64,000 nucleotides of DNA from Candidatus Binataceae bacterium (GTDB lineage: Bacteria > Desulfobacterota > Binatia > Binatales > Binataceae). The notes below the pieces were generated by a model. It saw nothing but the letters and a program-made list of their open reading frames with translations, had not been told where the DNA came from and ran no database searches. Positions 31,406 through 64,000 of the stretch are shown piece by piece; the first letter of the stretch is position 1, and every line of letters begins with the position of its first letter. The stretch lies in NCBI GenBank assembly GCA_035308025.1, contig DATGHL010000022.1:1-64000 (forward strand). Reading direction: 5' to 3'. The translations under genes were made by a program, and so were the position numbers.

Positions 31406-32494
31406 TCAAAAGGCCGGCGCGGGAATGCATTTGGCGTAATCCCCGGCGTTGTCGAGTTCCGCGTCGCACAGCGCCTTCGACGGATATCCGTCGCGCGCCC
31501 ACCATTTTTGATCTGGCGCGTGGATATTCCCGGGTGGCGGCCGCACCAGCCACCAGGGCATCTGTAGCCGCTGCTCATCCTCGATGTAGTCTAAGGTCAA
31601 GGCCGGCGTTGGCCGACCGTTTCGCGCGATCAACTGTAGATCTTCTTGCGCCGAGACCACTACCCGCGGATCGCTATCATTCGCCAGTGTATGCAGGTAG
31701 CCGATGGCTTCCGGGGTACCGATATCCGCCAGGACGCCGGCCGCGAACGCACGCTTGTAGAACTCACGGCTGTCGGCCCATTTGATGGCGTCGGCTATTC
31801 CGGTATCCGGCGGAGCCCCGAGGAAACGCTGAATTTTCTGAATGTCGGCTCGCTCGCAGATAGGATCGAATAGTGGATTATTCCGATAGCCCTCCTGTTC
31901 GACTTGCTGCAGCGACTTGATCTGCCGCTCGTAGAACGGTCTGAACTTTGGCTGGCCGCTGAGGTTCGTGTAGTTACTGCCATCCCAATCGTAGATTACC
32001 GGCCAGCTCGAACTGCAAAACGCGCCTTGATAATCAGTCAACTGATCGTCGAAGACCAGGTAAAGCTGACCGTCGCCCGCGACGTTTTGAATAACGTCGT
32101 CGAGCTCGTCCGCGTCGCTGCCGCTAGAAGGGCTCTGGCGCGCTTCGAACCCTGACAGCTTGCGGTCGACGATGTACGCGGTCCCACATCCACCGCGGGC
32201 GCCACCATTGAGCGTTACAATCAGGGTAAGATTGCCACTGTGGCGCAGGTCAGCGAAGCGAAATTCGCAGACGTCCGAATCGCCTCCGCGGTCATCGCCG
32301 TTCACTTTCACCATAAAGGAGCGAATCGCAGTTGTCGCCGGCGGATGGTTGGCCAAATTGGGCGACGCGCTTGCTGCCCAGTTGTAGGATGAGAGGGGAG
32401 CAGGCGGCAGGTCTTGCGCCCGCGGCGCCGTGCAGAAGAATAAAACCAATAGAGTGGATATGATCAGTTTTGACCGAACTTCTCGCAGGCTCAC
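31406..32494 (-). CDS. Exported protein with HEAT-like segment, unknown function
   Basis: The 362-residue protein has a signal peptide ('KLIISTLLVLFFCTAPRAQD', residues 9-27). The N-terminal half (about 28-190) is beta-rich with several Cys ('DVCEFRFADL', 'GGCGTAYIVD', 'AFCSSSWPVIYDWDG'). The middle (about 225-300) reads as helical repeats, 'AIKWADSREFYKRAFAAGVLADIGTPEAIGYLHTLANDSDPRVVVSAQEDLQLIA', like a HEAT-type pair. It lies 70 bp downstream of the redoxin selenoprotein candidate on the same strand and may be in its operon. I do not recognise the family. Confidence 0.65.
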   Translation of the reverse strand: MSLREVRSKLIISTLLVLFFCTAPRAQDLPPAPLSSYNWAASASPNLANHPPATTAIRSFMVKVNGDDRGGDSDVCEFRFADLRHSGNLTLIVTLNGGARGGCGTAYIVDRKLSGFEARQSPSSGSDADELDDVIQNVAGDGQLYLVFDDQLTDYQGAFCSSSWPVIYDWDGSNYTNLSGQPKFRPFYERQIKSLQQVEQEGYRNNPLFDPICERADIQKIQRFLGAPPDTGIADAIKWADSREFYKRAFAAGVLADIGTPEAIGYLHTLANDSDPRVVVSAQEDLQLIARNGRPTPALTLDYIEDEQRLQMPWWLVRPPPGNIHAPDQKWWARDGYPSKALCDAELDNAGDYAKCIPAPAF

Positions 32495-32564: not shown

Positions 32565-33809
32565 CTAAGCCTTCGGCGCGGCGGGCGCCAACGGCGCGAT
32601 TTTCAGGGGAATCTCGAAGGTCACCGACTGCGGAATCTTGCACTCATTGTCGTTGCACTCCTGAAATTCGAGGGTGCCGGCCAGTTTATAATCACCCGGC
32701 TTAAGCTGCTGCTTCAGTAGTATATTTCCGACCGCAGTAAACTTGCCCTCATAGACCGGAAAGGTCTGCCCCAAGGCCTCGAACTTGCGCATCATTGGGG
32801 GCGGAAATTTGAGCGACTGATTCTGCACCAGGTCGCCGCCAAAGGTCACTTTGGTCACAGTATATTCAGGCGGCAGCGGCGCGCCGTAGATATGCCATCC
32901 GGGTCCGACGTCGAAAGCTGCGCTGACGCCGAGTTGATGTCCGCTGTAGCTCTTGGCGTCCGAGACTGTGACTTTCGCGGTGACATCCTCTGCATGGAGC
33001 GTGACTGAGTTACTGCCGACGCCGAAGTCCGTGAGTAGAATCTCCGATGCGGTCGGACGCTCCTGATAGTCAGGTAGAAAGAGCTTGTCTTTCACTGTGC
33101 CGTCGGGCGCGATCAGATACTGACCCGGAAACGGGATGCCGTAAAAGCGTGTGACGTCCGGCGGCACGTTGATGTTGAGAATGCCGAATTTGCGGATTAC
33201 CGTGCTGCCCTTGTCGGAGAGCATCGGATAGCTGATCTGGTAGGCGCTGGTGAAGCGGCTCAGCACGTCTTGCGAGTCGTAGGTGATCGACGCGACGTTG
33301 ATCCCGTTACGCTTGAGGGCCGCCGATGATTCCTGCAGCTCGACGAGCTGCGAGCGGCAGTAGGGTCACCAATCGGCGCTGCGCAAAAAAACCAGCAGAA
33401 GCCCTTTCGGACCCATCAGGTCGTGCATCGACCGCGCCGCGCCATGCTGATCGGGTAGGCTGAAATCGGGAACCCTGTCGCCGATTTTCGGTCCGGTCTT
33501 GAGACCGTCATTCTGCGCGGCGACGAACGTGCTCCAGAGCCTGGGCTCGGGCTTTTGTCCGGCGCTCATCTGCTTGAGGACTTCGCGAAAGGCGTTCGAC
33601 TTGGTGTCGGTATCCATCGTCGCGGTTTGGTCGCCCGAAGATGCTGTACTCATTGAAGCGCTCCCGGTTTGATCCGTCTGCGCGGCAAACGATTGCGGGT
33701 TGCCGAAGGTTGACGCTGCTAAAAATGCAGCCAGACCGACGCCGGCCAGCAGCCGCTTGCGTGGGCCCAACCCTTTTCCCACCAGCCCCTGTTTCGACTC
33801 TCTCAGCAT
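32565..33809 (-). CDS. Exported redoxin with DsbD-like domain; likely selenoprotein (UGA as Sec)
   Basis: The two open stretches 33369-33809 and 32565-33365 are in the same frame, separated only by a TGA at 33368-33366. Read through, they give 414 residues: a signal peptide (residues about 1-43), a peroxiredoxin/thioredoxin-like domain ('VPDFSLPDQHGAARSMHDL', 'LLLVFLRSADW-U-PYCRSQL') and a C-terminal DsbD N-domain-like beta sandwich ending 'LEFQECNDNECKIPQSVTFEIPL'. The TGA replaces the first Cys of the C-x-x-C motif, so residue 148 would be selenocysteine and Cys151 its partner. A hairpin fitting a bacterial SECIS follows. It would act in periplasmic thiol-disulfide or peroxide chemistry. 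A nonsense mutation of TGC to TGA is the main alternative. Confidence 0.75.
33335..33351 (-). promoter_or_regulatory. Candidate bacterial SECIS hairpin
   Basis: On the minus strand GCAGCTC-GTC-GAGCTGC forms a perfect 7-bp stem with a GTC loop. The loop opens 21 nt after the TGA and starts with G, as required by SelB-type SECIS models; in E. coli fdhF the corresponding loop GGUC opens 18 nt after the UGA. The hairpin lies wholly inside the reading frame, as bacterial SECIS elements do. Confidence 0.65.
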
Positions 33810-63689: not shown

Positions 63690-64000
63690 ATGGCTCTGCT
63701 CGAGCTCAAGCATATCGCGAAGAGTTTCGCGCACGGCAAAGGCAGTCTGCCGGTGCTCGAAGATATCTCTTTCACCATTGATGAAGGACAGTTCGTCGCG
63801 GTCGTGGGGCCTTCCGGGTGCGGCAAATCGACGATGTTGCGCATCGTCAACGGGCTAATGCCGGCGACCTCGGGACAGGTGCTGTACCAGGGGCGGCAGG
63901 TTGACGGGATCAATCTGGAGTGCGCGCTGGTGTTCCAGTCGTTTGCGCTGCTGCCGTGGCTGTCGGTCAAGGCCAACGTCGAGTTGGGCCTGGAGGCGCG
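63690..64000 (+). CDS. ABC transporter ATP-binding protein, N-terminal part (runs off window)
   Basis: From the ATG at 63690 the frame stays open to the end. It reads 'LLELKHIAKSFAHGKGSLPVLEDISFTIDEGQFVAVVGPSGCGKSTMLRIVNGLMPATSG' with the Walker A GPSGCGKST and then 'ECALVFQSFALLPWLSV' with the Q-loop. It belongs to the NitT/TauT ATPase class and energises the fused permease just upstream. Signature and Walker B motifs are beyond the window. Confidence 0.93.
   Translation, partial: MALLELKHIAKSFAHGKGSLPVLEDISFTIDEGQFVAVVGPSGCGKSTMLRIVNGLMPATSGQVLYQGRQVDGINLECALVFQSFALLPWLSVKANVELGLEA

Follow-up and report, generated by a model that had tools for sequence, protein, structure and literature searches.

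The minus strand of the window (the whole stretch of DNA analysed here, which is 64,000 nucleotides long and runs from position 1 to position 64000 of a contig of 83,940 bases) raises an unusual question at 32565-33809: are the two open reading frames found there, which lie in the same frame and are parted by a single TGA (33368-33366), separate genes or the two parts of one selenoprotein? The preliminary description took the second view, counting 414 codons without any further internal stop, and retranslation of 33809-32565 agrees with it on both points. The sequence across the TGA reads '...FLRSADW-*-PYCRSQLVELQ', this codon (number 148) is the only internal stop, and the frame closes with a terminal stop after codon 414. 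The 265 codons located 3' to the TGA stay open in none of 2000 shuffles of the bases in that region. Judged from this frame and from the homologues described below, the locus is almost certainly a single selenoprotein gene rather than two ORFs. A standard gene caller would cut it in two, and the active site would thereby be lost.

When 148 genomes from the host class were searched, 25 homologous loci turned up in 23 of them. All 24 loci that span the active site contain exactly one in-frame TGA and none has a cysteine codon there; the match of the 25th, which lacks the TGA, starts 3' of the active site. The TGA occupies the same codon in every class homologue that was individually read; at codon 148 it is shared by the full-length homologues of the window's own family, which are 48-58% identical, and by two that belong to other families. 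The class homologues spanning the site are free of frameshifts and of other stops here, either of which would have spoken against recoding. Outside the class, where the search patterns used favoured Cys forms, TGC or TGT stands at this position in 22 homologues that share both domains, of which 21 are labelled Acidobacteriota, and likewise in redoxin-only homologues from Alpha- and Gammaproteobacteria, Opitutales and others. The fusion homologues outside the class read W-C-P-Y-C, in line with the earlier proposal that UGA replaces the first Cys of a redoxin C-P-x-C motif. One of the Cys homologues of Acidobacteriota type (L071) comes from a metagenome-assembled genome whose record is titled Bifidobacterium breve; it groups with Acidobacteriota in the tree, and the bin is probably mislabelled or contaminated.

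A 44-sequence tree places the 16 Sec-containing proteins from the family of the window protein in one clade (support 100/99) and five from other families in a separate one (100/100), while a long-branched Sec protein, L166, groups among the Cys proteins; the Sec and Cys labels require a minimum of two changes on this tree. Residues W147, Sec/Cys148, P149, C151, P228, Cys385 and Cys390 are among those invariant in a 38-sequence alignment. Several other families of the class also possess single-domain redoxins with the motif RGxWUPYC or UPFC and an in-frame TGA (L041-L047), which are probably members of the known peroxiredoxin (Prx)-like UxxC selenoprotein family.

Could the TGA nevertheless be a true stop, and the two ORFs the remnants of a decayed or misread gene? 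A stop does lie between them, and a second copy in the same genome is frame-broken in its C-terminal part. Yet the recurrence of the same TGA in 24 loci of the class makes a sequencing error untenable, the frames are intact on both sides of the codon, the downstream hairpin appears to be under selection and the host encodes the machinery for selenocysteine insertion (see below), so that we regard a pseudogene or sequencing error as very improbable.

The selenocysteine machinery, whose absence would have undermined the proposal, is complete: selA, selB, selD and selC (tRNA-Sec) were all found in the host genome, each above its cut-off. The selB gene (371 bits) and selD are situated on the same contig as the window, at 66111-69066, 2 kb past the window end, whereas selA and the tRNA-Sec gene (70.3 bits, anticodon TCA) are on another contig; ARAGORN detected no tRNA in the window itself. 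Located directly after selB, selD (L001:3485-4558, G000:C22:68095-69168) is itself of the Sec type, with an in-frame TGA (CKAAG-U-AGKLGP) followed by a hairpin, GGGUCC-GGC-GGACCU, and is thereby a second case, within this genome, of a recoded UGA accompanied by a tiny hairpin loop that contains G. Across the class, selA scored above its cut-off in 50 of 57 sampled genomes. A genome-wide reassignment of TGA, for example to Trp or Gly, would also leave the frame open, but it has a negligible probability given that TGA ends other genes of the genome, such as that for EF-Tu, that homologues have Cys at this position and that the host possesses the complete Sec machinery. An apparent TGA within the EF-Tu match proved to be the normal stop of that gene.

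A hairpin is located just 3' of the TGA, starting 14 nt after it (33335-33351, minus strand, as are all features of this gene). As originally described, it consists of a perfect 7-bp stem (GCAGCTC/GAGCTGC) and a GTC loop that begins with G, 21 nt from the TGA. Taken alone, the window sequence folds no better than chance (z = -0.83), and the weight of the hairpin consequently comes from comparison. All 14 Sec orthologues from the family have CAG CTC GTC GAG as codons 154-157, followed by CTG or TTG as codon 158, against an average synonymous identity of 0.53 outside these codons; Cys homologues with similar residues at this site use mixed codons. Over 24 Sec sequences, 95.2% of the stem cells are paired, three pairs have changed on both sides, and the covariation score is reached by no shuffle. 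In L166, the stem is kept despite a different sequence (CCAACUG-GUA-CAGUUGG). Conversely, pairing drops to 66.7% in 21 Cys homologues and the covariation signal is absent. Codon conservation and covariation in Sec homologues, with neither in Cys homologues, indicate RNA-level selection only where the TGA is present, and the hairpin is thus a credible bacterial SECIS element. Scanning against Rfam gave no matches, either in the window or in the region of selB. On the strength of this comparative genomic evidence, UGA 148 (33366-33368) would be decoded as selenocysteine by SelB and a Sec-tRNA(UCA), guided by the hairpin.

What kind of protein would result? The preliminary description had recognised a peroxiredoxin/thioredoxin-like part fused to a DsbD-alpha-like domain, and both Pfam and structural comparison agree. 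Residues 109-241 (33087-33485) match AhpC-TSA (PF00578) at 97.2 bits (cut-off 26) and, with the UPYC motif, have the features of Prx-like UxxC selenoproteins. Residues 289-399 (32613-32945) match DsbD_N (PF11412) at 26.5 bits (cut-off 25) and contain an invariant CxxxxC pair, Cys385 (32655-32657) and Cys390 (32640-32642). AlphaFold modelled the whole chain with a mean pLDDT of 86 and a pTM of 0.81. The redoxin part resembles BcpB, Bcp4 and AhpE in the PDB (Z 20.5-20.9, rmsd about 2) and matches ResA in Foldseek. When modelled alone (pLDDT 94), the C-terminal domain has the immunoglobulin-like fold of nDsbD: ScsB-N/nDsbD structures occupy the top eleven rows of the PDB comparison (Z 9.7-12.2, rmsd 2.2-3.0, 103-126 residues), with unrelated folds at Z 8.7 and below. 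A profile search of PDB sequences with this domain gave no match, and its kinship is drawn from Pfam and the fold comparison. No NCBIfam model reaches its cut-off for the window protein: NF040769 (SelL-related redox protein) scores 48.5 bits (cut-off 120), and NF045694 (TsoB) gives no match at E up to 0.001. The protein has no DsbD_TM match and thus lacks the membrane beta and gamma thioredoxin parts that DsbD proper combines in one chain.

The active site combines features of two groups. HMMER aligns Sec148 with the leading Cys of the ResA CxxC and with the Ser/Thr position in the Prx motif; C151 (33357-33359), its invariant UxxC partner, is aligned with the Prx peroxidatic Cys. The site is therefore thioredoxin-like on a Prx-like scaffold, and the T/SxxC of classical peroxiredoxins is absent, the T/S position being taken by Sec148. 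Such an arrangement would make Sec148 the N-terminal nucleophile of a thioredoxin/ResA-type UxxC site, and we consider a reductase the likelier identity than a peroxidase, the redoxin most likely acting as a seleno thiol-disulfide reductase. The opposite view, in which the Sec redoxin is mainly a GPx/Prx-like peroxidase that removes peroxides and for which the alpha domain would serve as an in-chain reductant, draws on the Prx-like fold with Bcp and AhpE peroxidases as top matches, on the alignment of C151 with the peroxidatic Cys and on the existence of an envelope peroxidase pathway, ScsB-TlpA-PprX, in Caulobacter (PMC5403849, review). It seems to us rather unlikely, because selenocysteine replaces the Ser/Thr of the Prx (S/T)xxC to give a thioredoxin-type UxxC, and because the invariant P228 occupies a ResA-like position at which it would be the cis-Pro, as in ResA-like proteins.

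The electron donor of such a reductase may be indicated by the DsbD complement of the host. The genome encodes a single DsbD_TM protein, from a separate gene, of 407 residues, which comprises the membrane part and a WCVPC thioredoxin and is devoid of an alpha domain; DsbD_N is matched by no gene of the genome other than the fusion gene of the window, although with an assembly about 97% complete (G000) an alpha-domain gene may have been missed. The same division is seen in three further genomes of the family (G001, G010 and G023). In all four, the DsbD frame is short (409-501 aa versus about 600 or more) and gives no match to DsbD_N, and exactly one DsbD_N protein is present. In the host this is the fusion; G001, G010 and G023 instead encode an alpha protein that stands alone and has a signal-like N-terminus. 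That of the sister genome G001 is located in the same neighbourhood as the window fusion, which in both cases includes a threonine dehydratase, a small zinc-ribbon protein and a response regulator. Secreted standalone DsbD-alpha proteins without a Sec redoxin also adjoin the same response-regulator gene at L139:5582-6118 and L141:6219-6800.

This distribution supports, but does not prove, a role of the fused alpha domain in serving DsbD in trans. The beta-gamma part of the host DsbD would reduce the fused alpha domain, and Cys385/Cys390 would in turn pass the electrons intramolecularly to the Sec148-Cys151 selenenylsulfide. A Sec redoxin with an alpha-to-Sec relay fed by DsbD is, in our estimation, the best explanation for the window protein, with a probability of roughly 0.6. 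Alternatively, the alpha domain might play a structural or substrate-docking role, or depend on another donor, many members of the family being cytoplasmic. Most Sec orthologues indeed have no signal peptide and many other genomes encode a complete DsbD together with the fusion, so that a DsbD relay is not the general reason for the fusion; the invariance of the alpha Cys pair in 38 homologues, for which a purely structural role would give no reason, nevertheless leaves us viewing an alpha domain not fed by DsbD as improbable.

As to export, the earlier claim of a secreted protein holds only in part. The window protein has a probable signal peptide region, predicted at about residues 1-43 (33681-33809), with a hydrophobic stretch, LLAGVGLAAFLAAST, after RKR, and is probably exported in the host organism. 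A hydrophobic N-terminus is present in nearly all Cys homologues; among the Sec homologues examined, it was found only in the window protein, L123, L126 and L128, and it is missing from the Sec orthologues L133, L134, L121, L122, L129-L132 and L120. Export is therefore no general feature of the family, most of its Sec orthologues being without a signal peptide, and the relay model is proposed for the host organism.

How does this protein relate to described systems? A Prx-like thiol:disulfide oxidoreductase selenoprotein (PF00578, UxxC) has already been reported (PMC1088965, PMC2398784, PMC13188914). It shares with the window protein an AhpC/TSA-like redoxin, UxxC in place of the Prx TxxC, a bacterial SECIS and Cys homologues, but it is described as a redoxin, without the C-terminal DsbD-alpha fusion. 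The 'Redoxin family protein' selenoprotein (PF08534, UxxC, HEU0032618.1, PMC13188914) is likewise a redoxin with UxxC and may represent the same or a sister family; the text does not mention a fusion, although the comparison is by description only and this protein may carry one unremarked. Unknown_3 similarly joins a Prx-like UxxC domain to a Cys-containing domain, which in that case has three conserved Cys with a CxxC rather than two in a CxxxxC. TsoB (NF045694), a rhodanese/DsbD fusion-like selenoprotein, is also described with a DsbD-like part but is rhodanese-like and carries UxxxxU. The N-terminal (alpha) domain of DsbD/ScsB has the fold and the Cys pair in common with that of the window protein, which in contrast follows a Sec redoxin and is not part of the membrane transporter. 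As in the ScsB-TlpA-PprX pathway of Caulobacter (PMC5403849), electrons would pass from a DsbD-like transporter to an envelope redoxin; there the components are separate proteins, whereas here the relay domain and the Sec redoxin would share one chain. The UxxC Prx-like selenoprotein is thus already known, while its fusion to DsbD-alpha appears to be undescribed, none being reported in the literature searched on such selenoproteins.

The family adds a well-supported selenoprotein architecture to the class. Its fused alpha domain offers a direct clue to the electron donor, donors of Prx-like selenoproteins being usually unknown, and, because the host DsbD itself has no alpha domain, the donor hypothesis can be tested directly. 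We tentatively suggest that the DsbD alpha domain has been placed outside the membrane protein, on a Sec redoxin, and that DsbD beta-gamma reaches its sole alpha domain through the selenoenzyme. If true, the cell envelope of the host lineage would have a reducing arm that depends on selenium and consists of a single chain.

The gene neighbourhoods of the orthologues contain no conserved redox partner; the genes that recur there are ordinary ones, among them those for an amidase and a response regulator. In the window, an N-terminal fragment of an amidase (PF01425; 33943-34275, plus strand, ~110 residues) is divergent from the selenoprotein gene; a relative has a complete 469-aa amidase ORF (L121:1404-2813), and the window copy looks frame-broken. 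The second copy of the selenoprotein gene in the host genome (L119:2910-4062, G000:C48:56948-58049) retains an intact Sec redoxin and SECIS, with the DsbD-alpha part in another frame, and either is on its way to becoming a pseudogene or reflects an assembly error. The next gene downstream of the window selenoprotein gene (31406-32494, minus strand), ~70 bp beyond it and possibly co-transcribed with it, has a product of 362 aa, the start of which is signal-like and which weakly matches HEAT repeats.
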